Source: Clostridia bacterium (GTDB lineage: Bacteria; Aerophobota; Aerophobia; Aerophobales; AE-B3A). Taken from it: a DNA stretch of 30,023 nucleotides. Below the pieces are notes generated by a model that made no database searches, had not been told where the DNA came from, and saw only the letters and a list, made by a program, of their open reading frames with translations. Numbering within the stretch: the stretch's first letter is position 1; every line of letters begins with the position of its first letter. Below are positions 11,748 to 28,248 of this stretch, piece by piece. Both the position numbers and the translations under genes were made by a program. The stretch covers positions 1 through 30,023 of the forward strand of contig WJOQ01000174.1 in assembly GCA_009618505.1 (NCBI GenBank), given 5' to 3'.

Positions 11748-11771
11748 ATTTGAGTTTAGATGAGGCGCAGA

Positions 11772-11880: not shown

Positions 11881-11896
11881 TGAGTCGAATCGAGCA

Positions 11897-12781
11897 ATGA
11901 AATCATCTGAGCAATTGAGTAAAATTGATGGCAAGACAAAGATAGCAGGAGTATTTGGCTATCCTGTGGAGCATTCTCTTTCTCCTCTATTTCATAATGC
12001 CGCCTTTGCTAGACTGGGGCTTAATTTTGTCTATCTTCCCTTTCCTGTAAAGCCAGAGGAGTTGAAGATAGCCGTCCAGTCCATAAAGTCTTTAAATATA
12101 GTAGGGATGAATGTGACTATTCCTCATAAAGAGAAGGTTTTGCCCTATCTTGATCAGATATCTCCTGAGGCAAAAGTAATAGGGGCGGTGAACACTATTC
12201 ATAATAAGGAAGGCAAATTAATTGGCTATAATACAGACGGGGATGGATTTATTGTGTCATTAAAGAAGCAGGGAGGATTTGACCCCAAAGATAAGAATGT
12301 ATTTTTACTGGGTGCAGGTGGAGCTGCTTATGCTATCTCTTTTGCTCTTATTAAAAGCGGTATAAAGAAACTAATTCTTGCCAATCGTACATATTCTAAG
12401 GGAAGGGCTCTTTTAGAGCATTTAAAGAAAATTTTTCAGGATAAGTGCCAGCTCTCTCTGGTTGAGTTTATTGAGAAAAATTCCTCTTTTGTAATGAGTG
12501 AGATTGACCTATTGATTAATGCTACTTCCGTAGGTATGCATTCAGGTGACCCTCTCTTGATTGCTCCCGAAATTTTGCCGCCGAATATATTCATTTATGA
12601 TGTTGTCTATAACCGAAAAACACCTCTTTTGAAGTTAGCAGAGGAAAAAAAACTGGCTTTTTTGGGAGGACTGGATATGCTCGTCTATCAGGGTGCCCTT
12701 TCCTTTGAAATCTGGACTCAACAAAAAGCACCGGTAGAGGTGATGAAAAAGGCATTGGGAAAAAACGTGAATCGTATCTAG
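11897..12781 (+). CDS. aroE: Shikimate dehydrogenase
   Basis: NADPH-dependent reduction of 3-dehydroshikimate to shikimate. Substrate residues are S27 and S29 (VEHSLSP), catalytic K78 (TIPHKEK) and D114 (GYNTDGDGF). The NADP loop GAGGAA is at 139-144, NATSVGMH follows, and the C-terminal YQGALSFEIW supplies the usual Gln. I chose ATG 11897 (294 residues, usual family size); the frame is open back to 11750 but the extra 49 residues lack family character and overlie the promoter. No strong Shine-Dalgarno is visible. The last four codons and the TAG belong to the repeat element that follows, so the C-terminus looks altered by it. Confidence 0.95.
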   Translation: MKSSEQLSKIDGKTKIAGVFGYPVEHSLSPLFHNAAFARLGLNFVYLPFPVKPEELKIAVQSIKSLNIVGMNVTIPHKEKVLPYLDQISPEAKVIGAVNTIHNKEGKLIGYNTDGDGFIVSLKKQGGFDPKDKNVFLLGAGGAAYAISFALIKSGIKKLILANRTYSKGRALLEHLKKIFQDKCQLSLVEFIEKNSSFVMSEIDLLINATSVGMHSGDPLLIAPEILPPNIFIYDVVYNRKTPLLKLAEEKKLAFLGGLDMLVYQGALSFEIWTQQKAPVEVMKKALGKNVNRI

Positions 12782-12944
12782 TATCTAGTATCTCGTGAGA
12801 AAGTTGATTAGGACGCAGATTTTTGCAAGATAGACTAGGGTAAATAGAGAATATTGAATTGAATCCCCATAATCTGCGTTCACCTGCGTCCGCCGGGGAG
12901 ATTCTCCCGGTTGGCGAGATACGAGATACGAACAACGAGATACG
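12767..12944 (+). repeat. Heptamer inverted-repeat element A (aroE-aroC junction)
   Basis: The left arm (12773-12793) is three 7-base units, CGTATCT AGTATCT AGTATCT. The right arm (12915-12944) is CGAGATA CGAGATA CGAACAA CGAGATA CG, largely complementary to the left. The first 29 bases and last 27 bases are identical to element B, but the interior is different. Inside is a second inverted pair of GCAGAT/CTGCG-type words (12811-12820 against 12871-12890) and a GC-rich hairpin at 12891-12916 (CCGGGGAGA/TCTCCCGG). The left arm covers the aroE stop codon and the right arm ends 9 bases before the aroC ribosome site. Confidence 0.9.
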
Positions 12945-12965
12945 TATTTTATGGAGGAAAAGTCA

Positions 12966-14135
12966 ATGATGCGTTATTTAACCGCCGGGGAATCCCATGG
13001 TAAAGGTTTGGTAGCTATTCTAGAAGGGCTCCCTGCTGGCTTGAAACTGTCCAGTCAGGATATTGACCGGGAATTGAGGCGCAGGCAAGCAGGCTATGGC
13101 CGGGGGAAGAGAATGAAAATCGAGAAAGATAAAGTAGAAATTATCTCAGGGGTTCGTATGGGAAGAACACTAGGCAGCCCCATTGCTTTATTGATAAAGA
13201 ACCTGGACTGGGAAAACTGGCGCCAGGTTATGATGGTAGAAGATAGAAAAGTAATTTCTCAGAATATTCCTCCCCTCACCCATCCTAGACCCGGTCACGC
13301 CGACCTGGCCGGAGCTATCAAATATAACTTTGATGATTTGAGAAATGTTCTGGAACGAGCCAGTGCTCGGGAAACAGCAGTTCGCGTGGCTATAGGAGCT
13401 ATTTGCAGGAGATTCCTTTCCGAGTTTGAGATTCGAATTTACAGTCGGGTGATTCAGATTGGCAGCATAAAAGATGTGAACCAATGGCAGCCAATAAAAG
13501 CAAGTTATCAAATAATTGAAGATTCTCCCTTACGTTGTCTGAATAAGAGAGCCGAGGCAAAGATGATAGCTCTAATTGATTCAGCTAAAGAAAAAGGGGA
13601 TACTTTGGGAGGAGTATTTGAGGTGGTAATTCTTAACTTACCGGTGGGATTAGGAAACTATGTTCAGTGGGACCTTAAGCTCGATGCCCGGCTAGCCTAT
13701 GCTCTAATGAGCATCCAGGCAATTGTGGGGGTGGAAGTTGGCTCAGGTTTTATGGCGGCAGAGAAATTTGGTTCCCAGGTTCAGGATGAAATATTCTACG
13801 AGAAAAGTGAGCATAGGTTCTTTCGCCGCAGTAATAATGCCGGTGGCATAGAAGGAGGAATGAGTAATGGTGAACCCATCATCCTCCGAGCAGCGATGAA
13901 GCCTATATCCACATTAGCTCAGCCTTTGTCTTCAATAGACATCGTTAGCAAAAAGCCTGTAAAAGCAATGAAAGAGCGAGCTGATGTTTGTGCTCTTCCG
14001 GCTGCTTCTGTTATCGGGGAGGCAGTAGCTGCCTTTGAGATAGCCAGAGCTATGCGAGAGAAGTTTGGCGGAGATAGCCTTAGCGAGACAAAAAAAAACT
14101 ATTCTGGCTATCTCGATTATCTAAGAAAAAGATGA
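12966..14135 (+). CDS. aroC: Chorismate synthase
   Basis: FMN-dependent conversion of EPSP to chorismate, last step of the common aromatic pathway. Signatures are [12 protein letters not shown] (3-14), the [12 protein letters not shown] basic stretch, RPGHADL, the [16 protein letters not shown] helix, [13 protein letters not shown] and [16 protein letters not shown] chose ATG 12966 because GGAGG (12953-12957) is 8 bases upstream and the family begins [12 protein letters not shown]; an ATG at 12951 would place the Shine-Dalgarno inside the gene. It has 389 residues, normal for the longer chorismate synthases. The stop overlaps the aroK start as ATGA, so the two are coupled. Confidence 0.96.
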
Positions 14136-14677
14136 ATATTGTCTTAACTGGTTTCATGGGAACGGGTAAGAGTAAAATAGGAAAAAGATTAGCCGAGAGA
14201 TTGGGAATGAGTTACCTGGATACCGATGAGCTTATTGAGGAAAGGGAAAAGGACAGTGTTCCAGCTATATTCAAGAAAAGAGGGGAAGAATACTTCCGCC
14301 GCCTGGAAACTAAAGTAGTTAAAGAAGTTGCCCTTCTTGATAATTTTGTAATCTCTACCGGTGGAGGAGTTGTTTTAAGAGAAGGGAATATAAGGTTGCT
14401 CAAGAAGAATGCTCTTATTGTTTGTCTTTTCGCCAGCCCTGAGGTAATTCTTAAGCGTACAAAAGGAGATGATAACCGTCCTCTTTTAGGGGTGAATAAC
14501 CAGAAAAAGAGGATTGAGGAGCTCCTTGCGCTCCGTAAGCCTTATTATGAAAAGGCAGATTTTAGGGTTGATACTTCCGCTTTAGATAGTGAAGGAGTGG
14601 TAGAGGAGATAATAGAGTTTTTAGAAAAAGAAGAAATCTCTAGAAGAACTAAACTGGCGCAAAATGATAACCGTTAA
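14132..14677 (+). CDS. aroK: Shikimate kinase
   Basis: ATP-dependent 3-phosphorylation of shikimate. The P-loop GFMGTGKS is at 7-14, shikimate-binding D30/D32 in YLDTDE, the RRLETK arginine region at about 53-58, the STGGGVV shikimate loop near 75, and the lid arginine in NRPLL. Its 181 residues are slightly above the usual 165-175 because of a charged C-terminal tail that overlaps aroB. The start shares ATGA with the aroC stop, and the last 14 bases overlap aroB in another frame. The tight packing indicates coupled translation of aroC, aroK and aroB. Confidence 0.95.
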
Positions 14678-15752
14678 GATTAATTTAGGGAAAGAACGTA
14701 GCTATCCCGTCTATATAGGGGCAGATTTAGCCAATCTGGGGAAAACAGCAAGAAGCTTTCCCCTGGGAGCTCATATTTTGCTTATCAGTGATGAGCGTGT
14801 TTATAGTCTCTATGGTGAGGCGGTAAAATCTTGTTTGGAAGAGAATGACTTTGATGTGAGTATAGCTTGCGTGCCGCCAGGAGAGACCTCCAAGTCCCTT
14901 TTTCAAGTAGAGAAGTTGTATGCTCGCTGTGCTGAGCTTAAACTGGACCGCTCAGATGCTATCCTTGCACTGGGTGGTGGAGTAATCGGGGATTTAGCTG
15001 GATTTGTTGCTTCCACTTATCTAAGAGGGATTAATTTTTTTCTTGTACCTACTACTCTATTGGCCCAGGTTGATGCCAGCGTAGGAGGCAAAGTGGGCGT
15101 GGATCTACCCGCCGGAAAAAATCTAATAGGCTCTTTCTATCAGCCAAAATTTGTCTATATGGACCTTGAGACTTTAGAGACATTAGAGCCCAGACAAATT
15201 AGAGAAGGGTTAGCTGAGATAGTAAAGCATGGCCTGATAAAAGATAAAGAGCTCTTCTATTACCTGGAAAAAAATATAGAAAGAGTAGGTAATCTGGATA
15301 GGAAAGTAGCTCAATTCATTATAGAGAGGTCAGTGAGAATAAAAGCGGTAGTAGTTGAGGAAGATGAGCGGGAAGAAAAAGGAAAAAGGCAGGTCTTGAA
15401 TTTCGGCCACACCATAGGGCATGCCATCGAGGGAGCAATGGAGTATAAAGAGTATACTCATGGAGAGGCAGTCTCTCTGGGAATGGTAGCGGCAGCAAAA
15501 ATATCAGAAAAGTTGGGTTTTATCAGTGAGGATTTAGTAAAAAGAATAATAGAGCTTCTTAAAGTGATAGGTCTACCGGTAAAGGTAGAAGAAGTAGATG
15601 AGGATAAACTCTGGGATGTTCTCTATCGGGATAAGAAAATAAGGGCGGGTCGTTTAAGTTTTGTTCTACCCAGAGATATAGGCGATGTTTTTCTTACCTC
15701 AGAGGTTCCTATAAAGGTGATAAAAGAGGTTCTCAGGGAGATAGAGAAATGA
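14664..15752 (+). CDS. aroB: 3-dehydroquinate synthase
   Basis: NAD- and zinc-dependent ring closure of DAHP to 3-dehydroquinate. The NAD-binding GGGVIGDLAGF and LLAQVDASVGGK stretches are present. Zinc ligands are the Glu in REGLAEIVKHG and the histidines in NFGHTIGHA and YTHGEAVSLGM. At 362 residues it is of normal length. ATG 14664 lies inside the end of aroK (14-base overlap), and the stop shares ATGA with aroQ, so it depends on translation of its neighbours. No fusion or missing residue is seen. Confidence 0.96.
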   Translation: MITVKINLGKERSYPVYIGADLANLGKTARSFPLGAHILLISDERVYSLYGEAVKSCLEENDFDVSIACVPPGETSKSLFQVEKLYARCAELKLDRSDAILALGGGVIGDLAGFVASTYLRGINFFLVPTTLLAQVDASVGGKVGVDLPAGKNLIGSFYQPKFVYMDLETLETLEPRQIREGLAEIVKHGLIKDKELFYYLEKNIERVGNLDRKVAQFIIERSVRIKAVVVEEDEREEKGKRQVLNFGHTIGHAIEGAMEYKEYTHGEAVSLGMVAAAKISEKLGFISEDLVKRIIELLKVIGLPVKVEEVDEDKLWDVLYRDKKIRAGRLSFVLPRDIGDVFLTSEVPIKVIKEVLREIEK

Positions 15753-16186
15753 AACACATTTTAGTCATTCACGGGCCAAACCTGAATTTGTTGGGAAGAA
15801 GAGAAATAGACATTTATGGTAAGGTCACTTTAGCTGAGATTAATGAGGCAATTAAACAGAAGGCAAAAGAGCTGGATTGTCAGGTAAAGATAAAACAATC
15901 GAATAGTGAAGGGGAAGTAGTATCCTTTATTGGTGAGGCTAAAGATTGGACCGATGCTTTGATAATTAACCCTGCTGCTTATACTCATACTAGTGTGGCG
16001 ATAAGAGATGCTATTTTGGCAGTTGGTATTCCTGCTGTAGAGGTGCATCTCTCCAATATTTATCAGAGGGAGGGTTTTCGACAGAAATCTCTAGTGGCAG
16101 GCGTCTGTAGGGGCCAGATTGCTGGATTCGGTCTCCAGAGCTATATTCTGGCTTTAGAGGCAGCAATTGATATCCTGGAAGCGTAG
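15749..16186 (+). CDS. aroQ: 3-dehydroquinate dehydratase, type II
   Basis: Dehydrates 3-dehydroquinate to 3-dehydroshikimate through the type II (enolate) mechanism; the family is dodecameric. Motifs are GPNLNLLGRRE (9-19) with catalytic R18, Y23 in DIYG, QSNSEGE, INPAAYTHTSVAIRDA and the catalytic His in VEVHLSN. At 145 residues it is the standard size. It starts in the ATGA overlap with aroB. Type I aroD is not present in the window, so this enzyme serves the pathway here. Confidence 0.96.
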   Translation: MKHILVIHGPNLNLLGRREIDIYGKVTLAEINEAIKQKAKELDCQVKIKQSNSEGEVVSFIGEAKDWTDALIINPAAYTHTSVAIRDAILAVGIPAVEVHLSNIYQREGFRQKSLVAGVCRGQIAGFGLQSYILALEAAIDILEA

Positions 16187-16242
16187 AGATTTATGGGTAC
16201 ACTAGAGGGTATTTCTTAAAGGAGCCTTATAACCACAAGGAA

Positions 16243-16337
16243 GTGAATCGTATCTAGTATCTAGTATCTCGAAAAGAAAGAAAAATCTGAGTTCCGTATG
16301 TAATATACTAGATACGAGATACGAACAACGAGATACG
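16243..16337 (+). repeat. Heptamer inverted-repeat element B (aroQ-pheA junction)
   Basis: The first 29 bases (16243-16271) equal the first 29 of element A, and the last 27 (16311-16337) equal its last 27; the interior is only 39 bases and unrelated. The right arm, starting at 16308, contains ACTAGATACG, which pairs with CGTATCTAGT of the left arm. The element starts with GTGAATCG just as in A, where those bases are coding, so this is a real element boundary. It lies wholly in the 189-base gap before pheA and ends about 25 bases before the pheA ribosome site. Confidence 0.9.
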
Positions 16338-16375
16338 AAAATCGTCTTGAGATATCCTTGAAAGAGAGGTAAAAG

Positions 16376-17437
16376 ATGAAGTTAAATTCATTACGAAAAG
16401 AAATTGATGACATTGACTCAAAATTGGTTCAACTATTGAATGAAAGGGCAAAGAGAGTTCTGGGGGTCGCCAGGATAAAGAAAAGAGAAAAAATGGAATA
16501 CTATTCCCCCGGAAGGGAAAGAAGTATTCTCAATAGATTAATTAAGGAAAATAAAGGTCCTTTATCTAATGAGAATCTTTCTGAAATTATTCGCTTTATT
16601 CTGAAGGTTTCTTTATCTTTAGAAAAAAAATTAAAAGTTGTCTATTTTGGCCCTCCTGCTACTTTTACTCATCTGGCGGCTATGCAGAGATTTGGCCAGG
16701 AGGTAAATCTAGTCCCGGCCAAGAGTATCGCTGAAATTTTTGCCAGGGTGGAGAAAAAACAAGCTGACTTTGGCGTAGTGCCGGTGGAAAATTCCACCGA
16801 GGGAGTAGTGAATTATACTTTAGATATGTTTCTTGACTCCAATCTGAAGATATGTGCTGAGGTAATTTTGGAGATTTACCACCATCTTTTGGGCAGGGGA
16901 GAGCTCAAAGAGGTAAAAAATGTCTATTCTCATTCTCAGGCTCTGGCTCAGTGCAGAAGTTGGCTAGAGGAGAATCTTCCCGAAGTGAGATTACTTGAGG
17001 TGGAAAGTACCGCCAAGGCTGCTCAACTGGCAGCTAAGGGAATGGGAGCGGCGGCTATCGCTTCTGATGTAGCTGCCAATCTTTACAAGCTTAATATTAT
17101 GGCTTCTCGCATCGAAGATTTATCTAATAACTACACAAGATTTTTAGTCATTGGGAGAGAATATAGCGAGAGAAGCGGTGAGGATAAAACATCTATTCTT
17201 TTCTCTATAAAAGATAGAGTAGGAGCACTTTATGATATGCTTTCTCCTTTTCGCACAAATGGAATTAATCTCACTAAGATAGAGTCCCGACCTACCAAAA
17301 GAAAAGCCTGGGAGTATGTTTTTTTTGTTGATTTTCTTGGTCACAAAGATGAAGAAGGTGTTAAAAAGGCTCTTTCCGAACTTGAGGAACAGTGTTTCTT
17401 TTTGAAAATATTAGGTTCATATCCGGTAGGAGGATAG
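16376..17437 (+). CDS. pheA: Bifunctional chorismate mutase/prephenate dehydratase (P-protein)
   Basis: Turns chorismate to prephenate and then phenylpyruvate, committing flux to phenylalanine. An AroQ-type helical mutase is at about 1-85 (LRKEIDDIDSKLVQLLNERAK). The dehydratase domain follows (about 88-265), with YFGPPATFTHLAA, PVENSTEGVVN and the NNYTRFLV segment holding the catalytic Thr-Arg-Phe. The C-terminal ACT domain (about 272-353) has GALYDML and the ESRP phenylalanine-binding motif, so feedback inhibition by Phe is expected. ATG 16376 has GAGAGG about 7 bases upstream. Length 353 is typical. The following DAHP synthase starts within 12 bases. Confidence 0.95.
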   Translation: MKLNSLRKEIDDIDSKLVQLLNERAKRVLGVARIKKREKMEYYSPGRERSILNRLIKENKGPLSNENLSEIIRFILKVSLSLEKKLKVVYFGPPATFTHLAAMQRFGQEVNLVPAKSIAEIFARVEKKQADFGVVPVENSTEGVVNYTLDMFLDSNLKICAEVILEIYHHLLGRGELKEVKNVYSHSQALAQCRSWLEENLPEVRLLEVESTAKAAQLAAKGMGAAAIASDVAANLYKLNIMASRIEDLSNNYTRFLVIGREYSERSGEDKTSILFSIKDRVGALYDMLSPFRTNGINLTKIESRPTKRKAWEYVFFVDFLGHKDEEGVKKALSELEEQCFFLKILGSYPVGG

Positions 17438-17448
17438 GGGGGAAGATG

Positions 17449-18462
17449 ATGGTTATTACTTTAAAACCAGGAACCACCGAGAAGGGGATCGAGCATGTAG
17501 TGGAAAGAATTAAGGAGTTGGGATTTACTCCTCACATCTCTCACGGCGAGGAGAGGGTCATAATTGGCGTCATCGGTGAAAATGCCATTAGGTCGCGTGA
17601 GATATTCGAGGCTATGTTTATTGTTGAATCTGTTATGCCCATTTCTCGACCCTACAAGCTAGTCAGTCGGGAATTTAAGGGAAAAGCTACGGTTGTTGAA
17701 GTGAAAGATGTAAAAGTGGGAGGAAATGAGGTGGTAGTAATGGCTGGCCCCTGTGCTGTGGAAAGCAGAGAGCAACTTTTGGAAATAGCCAGAGAGGTTA
17801 AAGAGGCAGGGGCGAAGATTCTGCGAGGCGGTGCTTTTAAACCGCGTACTTCTCCCTATTCTTTCCAGGGTTTAGGAGAAGAAGGCTTGAAGTATCTGGC
17901 TGAGGTGAGTAAAATTACCGAGCTTCCTGTTGTTACTGAGGCTATGGATTCCAGACAGGTAGAACTGGTAATTAAATATGCTGATATGGTTCAGGTGGGA
18001 GCACGTAATATGCAAAACTTTGACCTTTTAAAAGAAGTAGGGAGAAGCAGGAAGCCTGTGCTTCTTAAAAGAGGGATGGCTTCCACTCTGAAGGAATTTT
18101 TGATGTCAGCGGAATATATTTTATCCAGCGGTAATTACAATGTTATTCTTTGCGAAAGGGGTATCAGAACTTTTGAAGATGCTACTCGTTTTACTCTTGA
18201 TCTTTCCACTCTCTCTCTGATTAAGGAGCTGAGCCATCTTCCTGTTATTGCTGATCCCAGCCACGCTACAGGCAAAAGAAGTCTGGTTGCTTCTATGGCT
18301 AATGCGGCTATTGCTGCCGGTAGTGACGGTCTTATGATTGAGGTGCATTCCCGGCCAGAAGAAGCTTTGTCAGATGGTTTTCAGTCCTTAACACCGCCGG
18401 ATTTTGATAAGTTGATGAGGAGAATAAGGTCAATAGCTAAAGTTCTAGGGAGGAAGGTTTAA
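17449..18462 (+). CDS. aroF: 3-deoxy-7-phosphoheptulonate (DAHP) synthase, Thermotoga type with N-terminal regulatory domain
   Basis: Condenses phosphoenolpyruvate and erythrose 4-phosphate, the entry step of the aromatic pathway. Residues 1-75 form the ferredoxin-like regulatory domain of the type I-beta enzymes; the KDO8P-synthase-like barrel follows with GPCAVES and GGAFKPRTSPYSFQG. With ATG 17449, metal ligands fall at C102, H272, E298 and D309, the same numbers I recall for the Thermotoga maritima enzyme. This supports that start over 17446 or the longer frame from 17392. Its 337 residues match that enzyme. GGGGGGA lies 5 bases upstream. The regulatory domain suggests feedback by Tyr or Phe. 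The gene name is by function; aroG is equally used. Confidence 0.93.
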   Translation: MVITLKPGTTEKGIEHVVERIKELGFTPHISHGEERVIIGVIGENAIRSREIFEAMFIVESVMPISRPYKLVSREFKGKATVVEVKDVKVGGNEVVVMAGPCAVESREQLLEIAREVKEAGAKILRGGAFKPRTSPYSFQGLGEEGLKYLAEVSKITELPVVTEAMDSRQVELVIKYADMVQVGARNMQNFDLLKEVGRSRKPVLLKRGMASTLKEFLMSAEYILSSGNYNVILCERGIRTFEDATRFTLDLSTLSLIKELSHLPVIADPSHATGKRSLVASMANAAIAAGSDGLMIEVHSRPEEALSDGFQSLTPPDFDKLMRRIRSIAKVLGRKV

Positions 18463-18471
18463 GGCGGAAAA

Positions 18472-19767: not shown

Positions 19768-19809
19768 AGAGTTTCAAAAAGTGATAAAAGAGGAGAGGGA
19801 AGGGCTGAT

Positions 19810-20658
19810 ATGAGATTAATAGAAGAAATCAGTCAGATGAAGGATTATAGAAAGAAGATAAAGGCACCTCAGGTTGTTGGTTTTGTTCCCACTATGGGCG
19901 CCATACACCAGGGTCATCTTAGCTTGTTTAGAAAAGCACGTCAGCAGTGCGATAAGGTAGTGGTGAGTATATTTGTTAATCCTATTCAGTTTGGCAAGGG
20001 AGATGACTATCAGCGCTATCCGCGCAATCTATCAGAGGACATAAGTCTGAGCAGAAAAGAAGGTGTAGATGTGGTATTTGCTCCTCCTTCAAAAAAGATG
20101 TATCCTCAAGATTATTCTACTTTTATTCAAGTAGGAGGTGCTTTGTCTTCCACTCTGGAAGGGGCTTCTCGTTCCGGTCATTTCAAGGGTGTAGCCACTA
20201 TTCTTGTTAAGTTATTTAATATAGTTAAGCCTGACTTTAGTTATTTTGGAGAGAAAGATTATCAGCAGGTTTTAGTAGTAAGAAAAGTAGTAGAGGAGCT
20301 TAACCTGGATGCCCAAATTATTGCTCTCCCTACCATAAGGGAAAGAGATGGGGTGGCTCTCAGCTCACGAAATTTTTGCCTTAATAAGGAAGAAAGAAAA
20401 GCCGCTGCCATACTATATAAAGCACTAGAGAAGGCAAAACTCTGGATTGAGGAAGGGGAGAGGAATCCTTTTAGTATAGTCTCCAAAATAAAAGATTTAA
20501 TAAAAAAAGAGCCACTGGCCAAACTAGACTATGTGGCTGTAGTTAATCCAGAGACTTTGCAGAAAGTAGAAGATATAAAAGGAGAGGTTCTCATTTTTCT
20601 TGCCGTGAGTATAGGAAGTACTAGATTAATCGATAATATGAGGATTGGATATAAATAG
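19810..20658 (+). CDS. panC: Pantothenate synthetase (pantoate-beta-alanine ligase)
   Basis: ATP-dependent joining of pantoate and beta-alanine to form pantothenate, the coenzyme A precursor. The nucleotidyltransferase motif is PTMGAIHQGHL (27-37; H33 and H36). VSIFVNPIQFGKGDDYQRYPR, the KDYQQVLVVRKV helix and the SSRN (KMSK-like) loop follow. Its 282 residues are normal. The start has purine-rich GAGGGAAGGG upstream, 42 bases after aroA. panB and panD are not in the window, so only this step is tied to the aromatic genes. Confidence 0.96.
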   Translation: MRLIEEISQMKDYRKKIKAPQVVGFVPTMGAIHQGHLSLFRKARQQCDKVVVSIFVNPIQFGKGDDYQRYPRNLSEDISLSRKEGVDVVFAPPSKKMYPQDYSTFIQVGGALSSTLEGASRSGHFKGVATILVKLFNIVKPDFSYFGEKDYQQVLVVRKVVEELNLDAQIIALPTIRERDGVALSSRNFCLNKEERKAAAILYKALEKAKLWIEEGERNPFSIVSKIKDLIKKEPLAKLDYVAVVNPETLQKVEDIKGEVLIFLAVSIGSTRLIDNMRIGYK

Positions 20659-20693
20659 CGTGTACTGGATAGTAAGACAAAAAGCAAATAAAG

Positions 20694-20803
20694 ACATTGT
20701 ATTGGGTATATTGTATGTCGTATTGCGCAATACCGATCAGTCATAACGTATCTCATATCGTAGATCTTCTCATTTTGCTCTCTTCAAAAAGGATACGAGC
20801 AAC
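20694..20803 (+). repeat. Degenerate heptamer element C (panC-lpxB junction)
   Basis: From 20694 a run of 7-base units beginning with A continues for about ten units (ACATTGT ATTGGGT, then ATATTGT ATGTCGT, later ATAACGT ATCTCAT). A perfect 14-bp palindrome, GTATTGCGCAATAC, lies at 20720-20733. Near the right end GATACGAGCAAC (20792-20803) differs by one base from the right-arm core of elements A and B (GATACGAACAAC). It looks like a worn or mosaic member of the same family in the 165-base gap before lpxB. Confidence 0.7.
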
Positions 20804-20823
20804 AATCTTGAAGAAAGGTATCT

Positions 20824-21966
20824 GTGGTGTCGAAAAGAATAATGATATGTGCAGGTGAGGTTTCGGGTGACCTCCATGCGGCTAATTTGGTCCAGGCGGT
20901 AAAAAAACTTACTCCCGATATGGAATTCTTTGGAATCGGGGGGGAGAAAATGAAAGAGGCAGGGGTAAAAATAAGAGATAGAACTGTACATATGGGGACA
21001 GTAGGCGTTATTGAAGGAGCTAAGTATTATCCCTCTTTTTGGAAGATAAAGACAAGACTTAGCAAGGCCCTCGAGGAAGAGCACCCTGATTTAGTGATTT
21101 TGGTAGATAGCCGGGATTTTAATTTGAGAATTGCCAAAATAGCCAAAAAGCTAGGAATCTTGACTCTCTACTATATTGCTCCTCCTATCTGGGCCTGGAA
21201 CGACTGGCAAAGGAGGAGTATTTCTAGAGATATTGATAGATTCATTGCTATTTTTCCGTTCGAAGCTGAAGCCTATAAAAGAGCAGGGGCAAAGGTAGAT
21301 TTTGTCGGATATCCTCTGGTAGACTTGGTCAAACCAAGTATGAGTAAAGAAGAGGCTTTACAGAGGTTTAATATTAGGTCAGAGAGATTAATAGTTGGTC
21401 TTCTTCCTGGTAGTCGAAGACATGAGATACTAAAACTCCTGCCCCTTATGTTAAAGGTTGCCGTTAGATTAGACAAAGAGTTTAAGGGTATTCAATTTCT
21501 ACTTGCTGAAGTTTCCTCTCTTTTTCATAAAGAGATTGCCAGAATTGCCTCCGGGACTAGTCTATCTCTCAAGATTATCTCCAATAATACCTATGATGTA
21601 ATGAATGTTTCTGACTTACTTATTACTGCTTCAGGAACAGCCACTCTAGAGGCAACTCTTCTTAATACTCCTATGGTTGTTATTTACAAAACTTCTTTTA
21701 GCACCTGGTTGATAGGGAAAATCTTAATAAAATTGCCTTATATAGCTCTTCCTAATATCATTGCGCGAGAGGAAATCGTTCCCGAATTAATAGGCTTTAA
21801 GCTTACTGTGAAAAGATTAGCCAAAACAGCTCGGCAGTTACTGCAGAGAAAAGATAAGTTAGAGAAAATGAAAGTTAATCTGGAGAAAGTCGCTGAGAAG
21901 TTAGGCAAACTAGGAGCAATAGACCGAGCAGCTAAAATTGTGGTAGAGATGGTAAATAGTTCGTAG
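20824..21966 (+). CDS. lpxB: Lipid-A-disaccharide synthase (GT19)
   Basis: Joins UDP-diacylglucosamine and lipid X into the lipid A disaccharide at the inner membrane. N-terminal ICAGEVSGDLHAANL and GIGGEKM, central YIAPPIWAWNDWQ and VGYPLVD, GLLPGSRRHEI and ASGTATLEATLLNTPMVVIYK are all family motifs. Length 380 is normal. The start is GTG (20824, or the next GTG at 20827) with GAAAGG upstream. The stop codon TAG and the codon before it come from heptamer element D. It opens a set of envelope genes and implies a lipid A-bearing outer membrane. Confidence 0.95.
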   Translation: MVSKRIMICAGEVSGDLHAANLVQAVKKLTPDMEFFGIGGEKMKEAGVKIRDRTVHMGTVGVIEGAKYYPSFWKIKTRLSKALEEEHPDLVILVDSRDFNLRIAKIAKKLGILTLYYIAPPIWAWNDWQRRSISRDIDRFIAIFPFEAEAYKRAGAKVDFVGYPLVDLVKPSMSKEEALQRFNIRSERLIVGLLPGSRRHEILKLLPLMLKVAVRLDKEFKGIQFLLAEVSSLFHKEIARIASGTSLSLKIISNNTYDVMNVSDLLITASGTATLEATLLNTPMVVIYKTSFSTWLIGKILIKLPYIALPNIIAREEIVPELIGFKLTVKRLAKTARQLLQRKDKLEKMKVNLEKVAEKLGKLGAIDRAAKIVVEMVNSS

Positions 21967-22048
21967 TTCATTGTTCATAGTTCATCGATAAGAACAACGG
22001 ACAAGCAGAAGATTTTAGTCAATGAACAACGAACCATGAACGATGAAT
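21957..22048 (+). repeat. Heptamer inverted-repeat element D (lpxB-DUF362 junction)
   Basis: The left arm is four units, TAGTTCG TAGTTCA, then TTGTTCA TAGTTCA (21957-21984). The right arm (22021-22048) is AATGAAC AACGAAC, then CATGAAC GATGAAT, and pairs with the left. Spacing and layout match A and B although the unit sequence differs, which suggests the period and pairing are kept rather than the exact sequence. Its first units encode the last residues and TAG of lpxB. Confidence 0.88.
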
Positions 22049-22064
22049 AAAACGGGAGAATGAT

Positions 22065-23210
22065 TTGAGCGTTGTTTCGGTAGTGAAATGCAAGAGCTAC
22101 GGGCAAGAGAGAGTGGATAAAGCAGTCAAAGAGAGTCTTGCTCTAATAGGTGGCTTAGGTAAAATCGTAAAAGCTGGCCAGAGGGTTCTGCTTAAGGTGA
22201 ATATGCTAAATGCCGATCCACCAGAAAAAGCAGTGACTACTCATCCGGCTCTTCTCAGGTCAGTAATTAGAGCAGTTAAAGAGATTAAAGGGAAGGTCAT
22301 AGTGGGTGAGTCGTCCGGGGATGCCTATAAGGATATTGAGAAAGCCTGGCAGGTAACTGGCCTTAAAAAAGCAGCCGAAGAAGAAGGAGTAAAGGTCATT
22401 AACTTTCATAAAGTAGAAAAGATTGATAATTCCCAAAACAAGAAAGCACCTACTTTGTACCTGGCCAGAGAGGCCCTGGAGTCAGATGTAGTCATTTCTC
22501 TTCCCAAATTGAAGACCCACAACTTTACCCTCTTTTCCGGAGCGATTAAGAACTTATATGGCTGTATCCCTGGGTTTCATAAGAAGGAACTTCACCGCCT
22601 CTTTCCTCGGTCAGAGGACTTTGCTCAGTTAATGGTAGATATCTTCTCCGCAATTAACCCAGACCTGGCTATAATGGATGCAATTGTGGGGATGGAAGGT
22701 GACGGGCCAGCGGCTGGTCCTCCCCGCAAGATTGGGGTAGTTTTGGCCAGTCAGGATCTTGTAGCACTAGACGCAGTTGCCTCTCATATCATCGGTTATG
22801 CTCCTTTTGATATAGACATCACCAGAGTAGCTGCAGAAAGAGGCCTGGGAGAGGGGAAACTGGAGAAAATAGAAATTAAGGGTGTCCCTCTGAGTCAGGC
22901 CAAAATAGAGGGTTATCAGCTCGCTTCTAGTATTAACGTCCTGTTAAATAAAGTACCTGGCTTTGTTCTTTTTGCTTTCAAACATTTAGCCCCCTGGCTC
23001 TTAAAAATTAGACCTGTTATAGATAAAGATAGATGTACCGGGTGCGGGAAATGTATTGAACATTGTCCTACCGAGGCAATGAAGATGGAAAAAGGCTTTC
23101 CCATTATTGACAACAAGCAGTGCATTAGATGTTTTTGCTGCCAGGAGTTTTGCCTGCAAAGAGCAGTAGGGATTAAGTATAACTGGCTAGCCAGGAAATT
23201 TCAAATCTGA
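22065..23210 (+). CDS. DUF362 protein with C-terminal two-cluster ferredoxin domain
   Basis: The first 300 or so residues form a DUF362 domain (VVKCKSYGQERV, LLKVNMLNADPPEKAVTTHP, VVISLPKLKTHNFTLFSGAIKN, AIVGMEGDGPAAGPPRKIGVVLAS). The C-terminus has two CxxCxxCxxxC sets (CTGCGKCIEHCP and CIRCFCCQEFC) for two 4Fe-4S clusters; the second has an extra Cys and lacks the usual trailing Pro. The function of DUF362 proteins is largely unknown; the clusters suggest electron transfer in an anaerobic or low-oxygen cell. TTG 22065 has GGGAG 6 bases upstream. It sits between lpxB and an LpxB-like gene and 11 bases before the latter, so a link to envelope lipid chemistry is possible. Confidence 0.9.
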   Translation: MSVVSVVKCKSYGQERVDKAVKESLALIGGLGKIVKAGQRVLLKVNMLNADPPEKAVTTHPALLRSVIRAVKEIKGKVIVGESSGDAYKDIEKAWQVTGLKKAAEEEGVKVINFHKVEKIDNSQNKKAPTLYLAREALESDVVISLPKLKTHNFTLFSGAIKNLYGCIPGFHKKELHRLFPRSEDFAQLMVDIFSAINPDLAIMDAIVGMEGDGPAAGPPRKIGVVLASQDLVALDAVASHIIGYAPFDIDITRVAAERGLGEGKLEKIEIKGVPLSQAKIEGYQLASSINVLLNKVPGFVLFAFKHLAPWLLKIRPVIDKDRCTGCGKCIEHCPTEAMKMEKGFPIIDNKQCIRCFCCQEFCLQRAVGIKYNWLARKFQI

Positions 23211-23221
23211 GGTCTTTTCTG

Positions 23222-24448
23222 ATGTATATCTTTATGGTGACCAATAGTCCGGGTGAACTCCTTGGATGGGTAAGACCAGCAGCAGAAAAACTAAAGGAAA
23301 AACTGAAAGAAGCAATAATCACGGTAGTTATTCCTCCCTGCCAATATGCCAGCGGGACGGAAGACAAAGTAGCAGGGAAACTCGCAGCTGTGGACTATGT
23401 GGTGGGCCCATCTCAATACTTAAAGTATCTTTTTCTGGGCATTAGGCCTTCTTCCTTTCGCCAGGGAAGAAAGGGAGTCATTGTTTTCCTGGGAGGAGAC
23501 CCCTTTCATGCCGTAATTCTTGCCAGACGCCTGAAGCTACCTGCGGTAGCCTATATCCAGAAACTAAGATGGAAGAGGTATTTCAAGAAGTTTATGGTGC
23601 TCAATCAAGCGGTGAGAGAAAAGTTCATTACTCAGGGAGCTAAAGAAGAAAAGGTTGTGGCAGTGGGAGACTTAACCAAAGACAGCATTAAACTAAGGAT
23701 GTCTGCCAAAGAGACGCTAAGATATTGGGGGCTTGATTCTGAGCACTTCATCATTTCTTTTCTGCCTGGAAGCAGGTCCGAGGAGATAAGATATATGGCT
23801 CCTTTTTTCTTGAGAGTAGCTGAATTGATTAAAGAGGAGTTCTCTTTGAGCCAGTTTCTTTTGATTCTTTCTCCCTTTATTCCCAGAAAAGAATTGACTA
23901 TTGGAAACGAGAACAAAGTATTCCCAGGAGTAAAGGTTAAACTACAGCAAGAAAATAGTCAATGGAAATTAGTCACTGAATCTGGCTTGAAGGTTTTGTT
24001 AGTAGAGGAGAAGCGATACGAAGCTATAAATATCTCTCATCTGATTGTGACTATTCCTGGGACTAACACACTGGAATCCACCTATCTGGGAACCCCTATG
24101 GTAGTGACCATTCCCTTAAATAAGCCAGAGGCAATACCTCTTGATGGCCTGGTGGGATTAGTAGGTAGATTGCCATTCTTTGGTTCTTTTATTAAGAAAA
24201 GGGTAGTGAGAGGTTATAGCCGGCGCATCAAATTTACAGCTATACCTAACATAAGAGCAGATAGACAGATTGTACCGGAAATAATGGGAGTGATTGAGCC
24301 GGCTGATGCAGCTAAAGAGGTCACAGAGCTGTTAAGAAACCCCGAGCGGCTTACGAAAATGAAAGAAGAATTAAGAAATATAGACACAGCAGAAGGAGCC
24401 GCCGACAAAGTAGCCAATGTCATCTTCGAAGTAGGAGGAAAGAAATAA
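23222..24448 (+). CDS. LpxB-like (lipid-A-disaccharide synthase-related) glycosyltransferase
   Basis: A second, divergent GT19-like protein of 408 residues. It shares the GT-B layout with LpxB: N-terminal MVTNSPGELLGW, a central VFLGGDPFHAVILAR, FLPGSRSEEIR in place of LPGSRRHEI, and TIPGTNTLESTYLGTPMV in place of the ASGTATLEA motif. The lipid A-type WAW segment of true LpxB is missing, so the substrate is likely different. Start ATG 23222 follows the DUF362 gene by 11 bases with TGAGG upstream, and the GT4 gene follows by 5 bases, so it is mid-operon. I infer a role in an envelope glycolipid, not proven lipid A synthesis. Confidence 0.8.
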   Translation: MYIFMVTNSPGELLGWVRPAAEKLKEKLKEAIITVVIPPCQYASGTEDKVAGKLAAVDYVVGPSQYLKYLFLGIRPSSFRQGRKGVIVFLGGDPFHAVILARRLKLPAVAYIQKLRWKRYFKKFMVLNQAVREKFITQGAKEEKVVAVGDLTKDSIKLRMSAKETLRYWGLDSEHFIISFLPGSRSEEIRYMAPFFLRVAELIKEEFSLSQFLLILSPFIPRKELTIGNENKVFPGVKVKLQQENSQWKLVTESGLKVLLVEEKRYEAINISHLIVTIPGTNTLESTYLGTPMVVTIPLNKPEAIPLDGLVGLVGRLPFFGSFIKKRVVRGYSRRIKFTAIPNIRADRQIVPEIMGVIEPADAAKEVTELLRNPERLTKMKEELRNIDTAEGAADKVANVIFEVGGKK

Positions 24449-24453
24449 GGGAA

Positions 24454-25500
24454 ATGCACATTCTTCATTTGACACCTTATATGTCTTTAGGGGGAACGGA
24501 AAGACATATTCTTAACTTAATTGCCCAGGGTTTATCACGAGGGTATCAGGTCTCTTTAGCCTCACCAGCCGGTGAGGGACTAAGAGAAGTTCCCGATGCG
24601 GTTAGGCTCTATCAGATAAAGAATTGGCGAGGGCTTAAATTATTAAGCTCTGTCAAAGCTTTAAAGGAGATAATTTTGGCTGTTAAGGACGAGATAGATC
24701 TTGTTCAAGTCCATGCCTCAGCAGAGATGGCCTACCTGGCAAAGAAGTATCTAGAGGAAAAGCCAGTAATCTTTACCTGTCACGGTTATAATACCCACCC
24801 CCCCTATTTTAACTATTGGTTGGCGGCAAGATTCTTAAAAAGAACAGACTGCGTAGTAGCTCTTACTTCCGAAGAAAAAGAGTATTTTCTTCGGGGAGGA
24901 ATTAAAGAAGATCAACTAGTCGTTATCTCCAACGGTGTAGAAGAGAGATTCTTCCATTCTCCTTCTCTTCCCGGGAACAACGACAAAGTGATAGGCCTGG
25001 TGGGAAGATTGGTTAAAGAAAAGAACTTCACCTGGGCTATCAAGAAGCAGGCTAAATATAGATTTGCCTCTAAACTTCTCATAGTAGGGAAGGGTCCCTA
25101 TCGTCATTCACTGAAAAAGTTAGTGAAGAAATTAAAGTTAGAAAAAGAGGTAATCTTCCTGGGTTATAAGGAAGAGATGGAAAAAATATATCCCCTCTTT
25201 ACTTATCTTTTGATTTCTTCCCGTAAGGAAGCTTTCGCTCTGGTCATCCTGGAGGCTCTGGCTGCTGGTGTACCAGTGCTTGTTCCTGAATGGCTTCTTG
25301 GAGTGAGAAAGTTCTACGGCTCTGCACCAGGTGTGGTTATCTTTCGAGAAGGTAAAGATTTAGCACAAAAAGTGAGAAAGAGAGAAGGGAGATTAAAAGA
25401 GGACAAAATCCGAGCTTTCGCTCGTAATTTTCTCTGGAAAAATATCTTTGATAGGTATGAGCAATTATATAGCCATCTTTTGATGAGGAGAGAATTCTAA
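24454..25500 (+). CDS. Glycosyltransferase family 4
   Basis: Retaining GT-B sugar transferase, cytoplasmic face of the inner membrane. The N-terminal acceptor domain has the usual LHLTPYMSLGGTERHILNL. The C-terminal domain has GLVGRLVKEKNF, KLLIVGKGP and the donor-binding SSRKEAFALVILEALAAGVPVL (E-x7-E). The 348 residues fit the family. It probably adds a sugar to a core oligosaccharide or other glycolipid made by neighbours. Its stop overlaps the ABC exporter start as TAATG. Confidence 0.9.
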   Translation: MHILHLTPYMSLGGTERHILNLIAQGLSRGYQVSLASPAGEGLREVPDAVRLYQIKNWRGLKLLSSVKALKEIILAVKDEIDLVQVHASAEMAYLAKKYLEEKPVIFTCHGYNTHPPYFNYWLAARFLKRTDCVVALTSEEKEYFLRGGIKEDQLVVISNGVEERFFHSPSLPGNNDKVIGLVGRLVKEKNFTWAIKKQAKYRFASKLLIVGKGPYRHSLKKLVKKLKLEKEVIFLGYKEEMEKIYPLFTYLLISSRKEAFALVILEALAAGVPVLVPEWLLGVRKFYGSAPGVVIFREGKDLAQKVRKREGRLKEDKIRAFARNFLWKNIFDRYEQLYSHLLMRREF

Positions 25501-27239
25501 TGGCAATGAAACCCTGGCGCCGTTTATTAGCTTATCTGCGGCCGTACTGGCCAATCCTTGCTGTGGTTGTCCTTCTTACTCTGTTGGTTACTTTAACTAC
25601 TCTAGCCCTTCCCTGGATCATCGGAAAAGATTTAATTGATTCGGTTATTCTGGGGGGAAAGAGTCTTAAACTATTAAATCTAATCGTCCTGATACTGATA
25701 GGACTGCTTGCTTTGAAGGGATTATTCTCTTTTGGCCAGACTTATCTAATATCACTGGTTAATTTTAAGGTGATTACTGAAATACGTAATCGCATCTATG
25801 AGCACCTACAGCGTCTTTCTTTAAGTTTTTATAGAAAAAGGCAAACGGGAGAGATTATCTCCCGGGTTATCAATGATGTAGACCAGCTTCAAAATGCCCT
25901 CACCAATACAACCGTTAACTTCCTGACTAACTGTCTCATTTTGATCGGTGTTTTTGGACTTATTTTCTATCTTCATTGGCAGCTTTCCCTTTTTATTTTA
26001 TTGGTTATTCCTATTCTTGCCTTCACCGCCAACAAATTTGGTTCGTTGATAAGAAAATTTAGCAGCTCTATCCAGGCTAGAATAGCTCATATTTCTTCTA
26101 TCCTGCAAGAGACAATAGTGGGAGTTGAAGTGGTAAAGGGTTTCGGTGCAGAAAACAGGGAGATTAAGAGGTTTAGAGAAGAAAACGCCCGCACTCTTCA
26201 ACTATCCCTAAGGAGAACGCGCTTCATTGCTGCTCTTGCTCCCTCTATGGAAATACTGACTCTCATAGGATTGGCAGGGATTCTATGGTATGGAGGAAGA
26301 GAGGTCATAAAAGGAACCTTAACTACAGGAGAGCTAATTACCTTTCTTGGATACATAGCTCTGGCAGTTAATCCCCTGGCCTATGTAAGTCAGACTATTG
26401 GTATTTACCAACAGGCTATGGCTTCAGCAGAGAGAATTTTTGAAATCCTGGATACTAAACCTGAGATAAAGGACTCACCACAGGCGGTGGAGATACCTTC
26501 TGTGAAGGGCGATGTAGAGTTAAAGAATGTCTATTTCGGCTATGATGGAGAGCCGGTTCTGGAGAATATCAATTTAGAAGTAAAGCCAGGCAAAAGATTA
26601 GCCCTGGTGGGGCCTAGTGGCGTGGGCAAAACCAGTTTGGTCAGTCTTATTCCACGATTTTATGAACTTACCTCTGGAACTATTATAGTGGATGGATACG
26701 ATATCAAGAAGGTGAAGTTAGCCAGCCTAAGGAAACAGATAAGTATTGTTTCTCAGGAGACAATACTTTTTAACGGTAGCATACGAAACAACATTGCCTA
26801 TGGCAAGATAGAGGCCTCCAATCAGGAAATTGTTGCTGCAGCCAAAAAGGCTAATGCGCATGATTTTATCATCCAACAGAGAGATGGATATGAAACGCAG
26901 GTAGGTGAACGGGGGGTAAAACTCTCGGGAGGAGAAAGACAGCGTATTGCTATAGCCAGAGCTATTATTCGAGATCCTCGTATTCTCATCCTTGATGAGG
27001 CAACCTCCGCTCTGGATACAGAAAGTGAGATTCTAATTCAGCAGGCGCTGGAAAGACTGATGCAAGATAGAACTACCTTCGTTATCGCCCATCGACTCTC
27101 TACTATTCAAGGAGCAGATACAATCGTTGTGCTCAATGAGAAGAGAATAGAGGAATTTGGCTCTCATGAAGAACTTCTAGCTAAAGATGGGTTATATGCA
27201 AGACTTTATAGAAAACAATTTAAGTTAGGAGAAAACTGA
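25500..27239 (+). CDS. msbA: MsbA-like ABC exporter (lipid/lipid A flippase type)
   Basis: Half-transporter with six N-terminal membrane segments (about 1-310) and one ATPase domain. Walker A is GPSGVGKT (371-378), the Q-loop SIVSQETILF, the signature LSGGERQR, Walker B ILILDEATSALD with E500, and the H-loop IAHRLST. The 579 residues match MsbA-type homodimers. Its place after lpxB and glycosyltransferases makes flipping of a lipid A or related glycolipid the best guess; homologous multidrug exporters cannot be excluded from sequence alone. It starts in a TAATG overlap with the GT4 gene, with GAGGAG about 10 bases upstream. Confidence 0.88.
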   Translation: MAMKPWRRLLAYLRPYWPILAVVVLLTLLVTLTTLALPWIIGKDLIDSVILGGKSLKLLNLIVLILIGLLALKGLFSFGQTYLISLVNFKVITEIRNRIYEHLQRLSLSFYRKRQTGEIISRVINDVDQLQNALTNTTVNFLTNCLILIGVFGLIFYLHWQLSLFILLVIPILAFTANKFGSLIRKFSSSIQARIAHISSILQETIVGVEVVKGFGAENREIKRFREENARTLQLSLRRTRFIAALAPSMEILTLIGLAGILWYGGREVIKGTLTTGELITFLGYIALAVNPLAYVSQTIGIYQQAMASAERIFEILDTKPEIKDSPQAVEIPSVKGDVELKNVYFGYDGEPVLENINLEVKPGKRLALVGPSGVGKTSLVSLIPRFYELTSGTIIVDGYDIKKVKLASLRKQISIVSQETILFNGSIRNNIAYGKIEASNQEIVAAAKKANAHDFIIQQRDGYETQVGERGVKLSGGERQRIAIARAIIRDPRILILDEATSALDTESEILIQQALERLMQDRTTFVIAHRLSTIQGADTIVVLNEKRIEEFGSHEELLAKDGLYARLYRKQFKLGEN

Positions 27240-27242
27240 ATA

Positions 27243-27335
27243 TGTTCATAGTTGTTAGTTCATAGTTTATTGAGAAAGAGAGGATGGTTTAGAATTCAAA
27301 GATTTTCTACGACATACGCAATACGACATACGATA
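27243..27335 (+). repeat. Mosaic heptamer element E (msbA-GT2 junction)
   Basis: The left arm is four 7-base units of the element D type, TGTTCAT AGTTGTT, then AGTTCAT AGTTTAT (27243-27270). The right arm (27309-27335) is ACGACAT ACGCAAT, then ACGACAT, and is complementary to the TATGTCGTATTGCG stretch of element C rather than to its own left arm. The right arm runs to the base before the GT2 start at 27336, and no Shine-Dalgarno is visible there. Its mixed arms suggest exchange between family members. Confidence 0.8.
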
Positions 27336-28244
27336 ATGATGGAAGCAAGCATAATAATTCCTACTTATAATCGAAGAGACATACTAAGAAGAGTGCTCAT
27401 CAGCTTATTTAACCAAACCTATCCTAAGGAGACCTATGAGATTATAGTTATTGACGATGGCTCCACGGACAATACAGAAGCCATGATTAAGGAACTCAGT
27501 GCTCCTTGCTTTCTTCAGTATCTCAGGCAAGAAAAAAAGGGTGCTGCTGCAGCTAGAAATTATGGCTTACAGAAAGCGAAGGGTGAGGTTATCATTTTCA
27601 TTGACAGTGATATTATGGTCAGCCCCCATTTCATTGAGGAGCACCTTCGTTATCATAAACAATATGATGGAATTGTAGTGCGAGGACCGGTAATTCGCAC
27701 CCGAAGTATAGAAAATCCGACCAAAGAGAGAATGAAATTGACCGATATCTCAACTGCCTTTTTTGCCACAGGAAACACATCAGTAAAGAGATCTTTTTTG
27801 GTCCAGGCAGACCCCTTTGATGAGGATTTCAAAGAATATGGCTGGGAAGATCTGGAAATGGGGGAAAGACTAAAAAGACTGGGACTAAGAGTAAGAACCA
27901 ATAAAAGGGCGGTGGGATATCATTATCAGAAAAGAGTCCGTTTAGCAGATCTTCCCTACATATGTGCCAGGGAAAAGGCGCGGGGACGCACAGCAGTCCT
28001 TTTTTATAGAAAGCATTCCACTTCAACGGTTAAGTATATGACTCAGATTAGCTTTTTCTTTTTCTTTCTGGATTGGCTACTAACCATAGGTGATTGGATG
28101 GATAAACCCTGGGGAAAAAGACTTCTAATTTATCTGGATAAACACAACCGTAACTTCACTCTTAGAGTTCTTATGAAGATAATTGTCCAACATTCCTATA
28201 TAAAGGGGATAAAAGAGGCCCTTAAGAAAAACAAGAAGGGATAA
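27336..28244 (+). CDS. Glycosyltransferase family 2
   Basis: Inverting GT-A sugar transferase. The N-terminus ASIIIPTYNRRDILRRVL and VIDDGSTDNTEAM bind the nucleotide; FIDSDI is the DxD-type metal site, and GWEDLEMGERLKRLG the catalytic ED region. A hydrophobic stretch near 230-245 (ISFFFFFLDWLLTIG) may attach it to the membrane. I chose ATG 27336 (302 residues) because the 28 residues before it are translated repeat element and the domain starts at once after the two Met codons. The lack of a visible ribosome site suggests coupling to the exporter gene or an effect of the repeat. It likely builds the same glycan as the GT4. Confidence 0.9.
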   Translation: MMEASIIIPTYNRRDILRRVLISLFNQTYPKETYEIIVIDDGSTDNTEAMIKELSAPCFLQYLRQEKKGAAAARNYGLQKAKGEVIIFIDSDIMVSPHFIEEHLRYHKQYDGIVVRGPVIRTRSIENPTKERMKLTDISTAFFATGNTSVKRSFLVQADPFDEDFKEYGWEDLEMGERLKRLGLRVRTNKRAVGYHYQKRVRLADLPYICAREKARGRTAVLFYRKHSTSTVKYMTQISFFFFFLDWLLTIGDWMDKPWGKRLLIYLDKHNRNFTLRVLMKIIVQHSYIKGIKEALKKNKKG

Positions 28245-28248
28245 TTTT

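Follow-up and report, generated by a model that had tools for sequence, protein, structure and literature searches.

Tandem heptanucleotides at many intergenic places are known from Cyanobacteria as short tandemly repeated repetitive (STRR) sequences. Comparable systems have been reported from other bacteria. In Xanthomonas the heptamer GGGAATC forms intergenic tandem arrays, mostly of four units and mainly between co-directional genes, with close convergent site pairs in 70 and 75 cases (PMC4692102), and in Geobacter metallireducens paired tandem octanucleotide sites on opposite strands (class 1, GTTGCTYN) are putative sites of a global regulator (PMC2700814). Among the TAACTGA heptamer repeats the sole indirect repeat belongs to the BOGUAY genome only (PMC4679880), and repetitive extragenic palindromic sequences (REPs) and their hairpin-forming doublets (REPINs) lie mostly downstream of genes (PMC3116915, PMC3733652). 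The present study concerns a stretch of 30,023 nt (contig WJOQ01000174.1, assembly GCA_009618505.1; hereafter the window) from an uncultured member of the Aerophobetes, in which a run of genes from aroE to a GT2 glycosyltransferase gene carries, at most of its longer junctions, elements made of 7-base units. Such an element would consist of two arms on either side of a spacer, with tandem 7-mers on the left and largely complementary ones on the right; it would measure about 80-170 bases in all and form a hairpin in DNA or RNA. The elements are multicopy, mostly intergenic, arm-paired and family-specific in sequence, and from one relative to the next a given junction may hold an element, lack it or hold one of a different type. 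We propose, with a probability of roughly 0.6, that they constitute several families of short dispersed non-autonomous hairpin repeats, similar in behaviour to REPINs or to miniature inverted-repeat transposable elements (MITEs).

The phasing by 7 bases is genuine and extends throughout the genome. Intergenic DNA of the window matches itself at lag 7 with z = 4.8 over 20 dinucleotide shuffles, followed by lag 14 (z = 2.0). In the intergenic part of a 309-kb sample of the nearest genome compared (G001 in our numbering, which shares 26% of the sampled 31-letter words with the window) the z values are 13.7, 9.0 and 10.2 at lags 7, 14 and 21, the next being 4.8 at lag 12; in coding DNA lag 7 is not raised. 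Taking as an array at least 11 of 14 consecutive lag matches, the window and the G001 sample hold 79 arrays at lag 7 and 49 at lag 14, for 3.4 and 2.4 in shuffles, and only 2-6 at each of lags 4-6, 8-13 and 15; lag 8 thus shows no excess over chance in the DNA that is enriched at lag 7. The coding DNA (279 kb) yields 18 lag-7 arrays, inside the range of 7-33 for other lags. Half of the 20 G001 stretches (189 of the 309 kb) had been picked for hits or orthology; in the ten contigs picked regardless of hits the intergenic DNA contains 9 arrays at lag 7 and 10 at lag 14, for 0.95 and 1.30 in 20 shuffles (maxima 4 and 3), and these are the only clear peaks; lags 11 and 12 come next, with three arrays each, inside their shuffle maxima. 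Random samples of other genomes gave 23 lag-7 arrays in G002, 10 in G003, three each in G006 and G008 and one in G007, with at most 1.0 in shuffles, and none in the samples of G004, G005 and G009. The clearly element-bearing genomes are G001, G002, G003, G006 and G008, the last four being 69-84% complete.

Several families have conserved arms and two of them conserved cores; therefore it is sequence that is kept, and not the period alone. The commonest units in 118 arrays from the five element-bearing genomes and the window are GAGATAC (23), GAACAAT (10), GAGCAAC (9), GCTATAC (8) and GAAATAC (6), together with a TATTCAC/GATTCAC/CATTCAC group. Among the loci examined we distinguished 10 long copies of a GTATCT family, 14 of a GTTCAT family and 32 of a GTGAAT family. 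In the GTATCT family the two ends are conserved and polar, GTGAATC-GTATCTA-GTATCTC at the 5' side and AGATACG-AACAACG-AGATACG at the 3' side. Cores are clearly alignable in the GTGAAT and GTTCAT copies and more variable in GTATCT, and within the GTGAAT family the mean pairwise identity is 0.79 for the left arm, 0.79 for the core and 0.86 for the right arm. Alignment of family copies also reveals outer modules common to different hairpin types; such modules were suspected by eye beside window element B, but when searched with BLAST at E 0.01 they had no match there or elsewhere in the window. A C-rich module (CCCCTCACCTTAATCCTCTCCCC) flanks GTTCAT hairpins in G001 (locus L031, about 6873-6900; L026, 14072-14096 and 16276-16300) and is likewise found in the samples of G002 and G006.

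In searches of nine genomes of the same family, in which many matches cover an arm only, the GTATCT query found matches in four (at least 35 in G001, 35 in G002, 29 in G003 and 36 in G006), the GTTCAT query in five (at least 49 in G001, 47 in G002, 9 in G003, 25 in G006 and 2 in G005) and the GTGAAT query in six (at least 42 in G001, 49 in G002, 9 in G003, 7 in G006, 2 in G005 and 13 in G008). The G005 matches are few, weak and partial, and none of the three queries has a match among those listed for G004, G007 and G009. Farther away, three-unit patterns occur in 9 (GTATCTN) and 13 (GTTCATN) of 290 genomes; isolated distant hits may be due to chance, because the reversed control patterns match 2 and 5 genomes. 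One genome (G080) has 17 matches to a reversed control pattern (TACTTGNTACTTGNTACTTG) and seems to carry 7-mer arrays of another word. The distant genome G104 has the same vocabulary, with 6 lag-7 arrays for 0.0 in shuffles in two 12-kb stretches picked for hits (two of the six are the seeds themselves), and two 12-kb stretches of G206 not picked for hits hold one array for 0.2. Octamer arrays are found instead in G010, of the same order (14 at lag 8 versus 1.3); those in its locus L102, e.g. at 93-151, 236-289 and 11433-11495 (GGATTAAA / GGATTAGA), follow the same idea with a period of eight.

The arms of these elements pair well beyond chance. Within the 118 arrays there are 35 adjacent pairs no more than 150 bases apart (arm-to-arm distances 11 to 140 bases), with a mean inverted-match score of 12.46 and a direct one of 4.66. 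Re-dealing the right partners lowers the mean to 7.81 (standard deviation 0.79, maximum 11.83), and none of 200 trials reached the observed value. The inverted score is at least 12 in 20 pairs, at least 10 in 24 and 3-6 in 11. Some of these low-scoring pairs seem to be made up of adjacent arrays that belong to different elements. When folded as RNA, the 35 paired regions have a median z of -3.6, with 15 below -4, versus a median of -0.63, with one below -4, for 35 array-free intergenic 100-mers of G001. The paired arms have both the inverted doublet, spacer and hairpin seen in REPINs and the terminal inverted repeats seen in MITEs. A previous interpretation of the window from its letters alone (the sequence-only reading) had named tests of 7-base enrichment and arm pairing over shuffled intergenic sequence and of further copies in the genome, and none of these refutes a genome-wide set of paired elements: lag-7 arrays exceed shuffles, also in the unselected G001 contigs, pairing exceeds that of re-dealt partners, and copies of the three families recur in related genomes. 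Its suggestion that structure or copying mechanism is kept, and not sequence, is not supported in view of the conserved unit words, the polar ends and the alignable cores in two of the three families examined.

That reading had also called for a comparison of orthologous junctions. The same gene run is kept throughout the order, and from aroE to lpxB the G001 proteins are 84-98% identical to those of the window. In G001 the A and D junctions are plain (21 bases for D) and the B and C junctions carry other 7-mer elements; at E the left array type is common to both genomes, as is by eye the end point of the right array, with a different right unit. An insert of about 380 bases with a GTGAAT hairpin precedes the GT4 gene of G001, where the window has fewer than 30 bases, and another of about 67 bases without 7-mers, at DAHP synthase/aroA, is absent from the window. 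Measured approximately, between tblastn ends, the aroE/aroC distance is 23 in G004, 24 in G005, 20 in G006, 11 in G007, 23 in G009, 14 in G010, about 0 in G011 and 44 in G012; these eight junctions are free of arrays, so the long junctions are attributable to insertions. The distance is 50 in G001, and 230 in G003, where it holds AGCGTAT and ATTCAC arrays. The aroQ/pheA distance, measured in the same way, is about 309 in G001, which has an array there; of the eight other relatives, seven have 11-22 and G010 has 100. G001 and G002 are 94-98% alike in the stretches compared, and between their orthologues two arrays differ by exactly 14 bases (two units), one site has only a stub in common, and a G002 insertion of about 121 bases bears another repeat together with GAGCTAT-type 7-mers (the latter by eye). 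From these comparisons we conclude that elements get into tight junctions and change quickly.

In the window itself, Pfam assigns ten proteins of the run (aroE, aroC, pheA, DAHP synthase, lpxB, DUF362, an lpxB-like protein, GT4, an ABC transporter and GT2), and the names aroK, aroB, aroQ, aroA and panC rest on gene order and on the sequence-only reading. Genes were called as simple open reading frames (ORFs), a caveat for both junctions and orientation. On this basis the five long junctions measure about 169, 189, 165, 98 and 96 bases (A to E), in agreement with the previous values except for the first (about 184), and the remaining junctions are overlaps or at most 42 bases, as had been stated, though they number nine and not ten. 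The five elements of 7-base units, paired in A, B and D, that had been assigned to the long junctions were recovered in part. A, B and D have both arrays and folds, and Tandem Repeats Finder (TRF) detects period-7 arrays on both arms or sides of A, B, D and E. Junction C has no period-7 array by TRF or by our array detector and no stable fold (z +1.0); the two arrays of E, missed by the stricter array detector, differ in unit type and neither pair nor fold (z +1.5). RNA fold z values over shuffles are -5.0, -2.5 and -3.0 for the whole junctions A, B and D and -4.1, -4.8 and -3.1 from arm to arm. The left arm of element A is the conserved 5' end of the GTATCT family and supplies the last codons and stop (12779-12781) of aroE (ORF 11750-12781), and the last codons and stop of lpxB (21964-21966) come in the same way from the left arm of element D. 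The claim that every long junction is filled holds at most for the aroE-GT2 run: window-wide, arrays lie in three of seven gaps of at least 150 bases (those of A and B, and one beyond the run with a weak array at 29230) and in one of four of 60-149 bases (D). The corresponding fractions in the G001 sample are 28 of 82 and 14 of 41, with 3 of 73 for shorter gaps. An Rfam search of window positions 12500-28600 returned a single match, at the DAHP synthase/aroA boundary, with an E value of 0.55 and far under the gathering score.

Table 1. Arms, arrays and related stretches at the five long junctions of the aroE-GT2 run (window positions).
Feature	Positions	Strand	Units or type	Basis and remarks
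Element A, left arm	12767..12798	+	GTGAATC, then GTATCTA, GTATCTA, GTATCTC	TRF 12774-12793; array detector 12770-12798
Element A, spacer stretch	12800..12829	-		By eye, resembles the reverse complement of the 3' half of repeat 11829-11883
Element A, right arm	12915..12944	+	GAGATAC, GAGATAC, GAACAAC, GAGATAC	TRF and array detector; inverted match to left arm, score 14
Element B, left arm	16246..16274	+	GTATCT type	TRF 16250-16269; array detector
Element B, right arm	16302..16338	+	GAGATAC / GAACAAC type	TRF 16305-16338; array detector; inverted match score 18
Junction C	20657..20823	+	GTATTGG-GTATATT-GTATGTC-GTATTGC stretch	By eye; right end (GAGCAACAA) in common with a G001 7-mer hairpin
Element D, left arm	21956..21989	+	GTTCAT type	TRF 21956-21985; array detector
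Element D, right arm	22020..22047	+	ATGAAC type	TRF and array detector; inverted match score 16
Element E, left array	27244..27267	+	GTTCAT type	TRF; start in common with G001
Element E, right array	27308..27333	+	TACGACA type	TRF; the G001 array ending there is of GAGCAAC type

Some other differences and repeats were observed around this run. Just upstream of aroE, positions 11829-11883 hold another dispersed repeat (GGTATAGGGATTTCCTTTTTAGACATAGAGCTG...), which has one match in the G001 sample, and a similar stretch sits within a G002 insertion. The genes aroC and aroK, which overlap in the window, are about 6.4 kb apart in G001 (contig C117, 7058-13440; locus L015), and the right end of this interval holds a stretch resembling the 5' region of the window aroE. 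At window positions 28377-28389 G001 is longer by about 870 bases, by a short reading frame after GT2, possibly a partly deleted gene.

In order to account for these data as dispersed hairpin repeats, we infer that non-autonomous copies would spread through a trans-acting enzyme recognising the hairpin or its arms. Slippage may add or remove whole 7-mers in the arms, and adjacent copies may merge into mosaics. Insertions would survive mainly just past stop codons, where they would be transcribed as stem-loops, mostly in one orientation. Several observations weigh against this proposal. Many copies cannot be demonstrated to be copies of a whole element, because only 13 of the 33 inter-array spacers have a match elsewhere in the samples, and the three families were recruited through similarity to chosen copies. 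There is no signal of a target-site duplication, the longest shared flank word being 0.68 versus 0.73 for re-dealt flanks in GTGAAT (n = 28) and 1.33 versus 1.30 in GTATCT (n = 9). Finally, among 13 loci of Y1_Tnp, RVT_1 and DDE_Tnp_1, the transposase search being confined to these families, no gene has 7-mer arrays on both sides, and a 7-mer array of any sort lies in only two of the loci.

As for the mover, 7 of the order's 17 genomes have Y1_Tnp, with four matches in G001 and two in G005, and among the five element-bearing genomes it matches G001 only; the two full-length G001 Y1 loci show no 7-mer array across about 3.4 kb. Its distribution does not follow the elements and it was set aside, as were RVT_1, found in one of nine genomes (G006), and DDE_Tnp_1, found in five of nine, absent from the element-bearing G003 and G008 and present in the element-free G004. 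Spread by phages or plasmids was likewise set aside. A search of 72,556 plasmid records with the GTATCT element and one of 50,697 phage records with the GTGAAT element found no match. IMG/VR has 23 and 42 stretches containing the exact three-unit patterns, of which 0 of 23 and 3 of 42 show an inverted partner no more than 200 bases away, and in its seed-free intergenic DNA lags 7, 8 and 9 are alike (30, 30 and 27); period 7 is therefore nothing special there.

An alternative that we entertain only tentatively is that the elements form a separate class of mobile hairpin, whose recognised feature would be the 7-base phase of the paired arms and not a fixed sequence. One enzyme or templated process would move all of them, the arm words having diverged into families while the arms stay complementary. 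The type swaps at junctions between relatives are compatible with this, as are a GTTCAT hairpin with paired arms at locus L180 of G241, a distant genome, and the connected network of unit words, in which 42 of 48 words fall into a single one-mismatch component (11.8 on average and at most 31 for permuted words). Within the Aerophobetes arrays a common unit skeleton exceeds permuted arrays, with 4.25 bits for the 118 arrays versus 2.68 (standard deviation 0.04) after column permutation and 3.42 versus 2.58 (0.105) for 46 distinct units, in a test that kept related words in (one-mismatch linkage joins 112 of the 118 arrays). However, a unit skeleton common to distant genomes finds no support: their 19 arrays, two row pairs of which are the same places twice, fit GTNNNYN at 0.347 versus 0.357 permuted, and a universal skeleton was dropped.

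It is rather unlikely that the elements are selected regulatory RNA hairpins, which would stabilise, end or uncouple parts of the operon mRNA, or bind a global regulator as proposed for the Geobacter sites. Copies between co-directional genes run with the genes in 28 cases and against them in 6 (p 0.0002; GTATCT 6:0, GTTCAT 7:2, GTGAAT 15:4, the last alone p 0.019), in a test that excludes 22 of 56 copies for mixed orientation or a missing neighbour. This bias suggests that the hairpin, once transcribed, has some effect, whether good or bad, and together with the stable folding of the paired regions and the placement of A and D after stop codons it speaks for a regulatory role; yet it also fits simple tolerance of one orientation, C and E do not fold, and presence at a given junction is not kept between relatives.

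Growth in place is less probable still. Arrays would expand at each site by replication slippage and become paired through strand switching, with no movement, which would suit the two 14-base differences between orthologous arrays and the 20 of 33 spacers without a match elsewhere in the samples. Identical unit words and polar ends recur, however, at many sites in several genomes, and two families have alignable cores; arrays grown separately at each site would not be expected to show this, and for the three families this explanation is largely refuted. Ordinary REP/REPIN elements moved by a Y1 transposase of the REP-associated tyrosine transposase (RAYT) type are very improbable, for although the layout of inverted doublet, spacer and hairpin at mostly intergenic places is common to both (PMC3116915, PMC3733652) and G001 and G005 have Y1_Tnp matches, the arms are tandem direct 7-mers and not tagged palindromes, the other four element-bearing genomes, incomplete as they are, have no such match, and the full-length G001 Y1 loci are without arrays.

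In this lineage several repeat families with one 7-base hairpin plan show turnover, from relative to relative, within a core biosynthetic operon. The group therefore offers a manageable system in which to ask why it is heptamers, among all possible unit lengths, that recur in the intergenic DNA of bacteria, and how such hairpins move when no transposase linked to them is found. It also carries a warning for annotation, in that inserted repeats can supply gene ends in this group, as in aroE and lpxB.

Compared with known systems, the Aerophobetes elements share with REPINs and with the GTAG/CGTC REPs the inverted doublets with a spacer, the hairpin, the many copies and the mostly intergenic location (PMC3116915, PMC3733652). 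REP units, however, are palindromes of 20-40 bases that carry a GTAG or CGTC tag outside the pairing, and the GTAG REPs go with RAYT genes (PMC3733652), whereas the arms described here are direct 7-mer arrays, for which we found no RAYT link and in which reading by eye, with no motif scan, revealed no tagged palindrome of that kind. Like the Geobacter sites, they are short tandem repeats paired on opposite strands at variable distance in many places per genome, and class 1 GTTGCTYN is close to a GTTGCTN unit of the Aerophobetes elements; the class 1 unit is nevertheless of eight bases, the families are smaller (24, 21 and 8 pairs), and the accessible text describes no insertion between relatives (PMC2700814). 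The TAACTGA repeats of Beggiatoaceae, Cyanobacteria and Bacteroidetes are likewise intergenic tandem heptamers at many places, but there a single word forms direct arrays and one-base variants are rarely repeated, whereas variant words are the rule in the Aerophobetes elements (PMC4679880). With Xanthomonas they have in common intergenic tandem heptamers in partly convergent pairs, although the one G-rich, quadruplex-capable word GGGANTN (PMC4692102) differs from unit words that have no G-run of three. The sequence-only reading had considered the paired layout possibly undescribed. The Xanthomonas heptamer pairs and the Geobacter octamers are precedents for it (PMC4692102, PMC2700814), and a literature search that left most subscription papers outside its reach found no description of these Aerophobetes elements. 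What that search did not find described is the combination, within one lineage, of several heptamer-armed hairpin families with conserved cores, mosaic neighbours and fast turnover at operon junctions.

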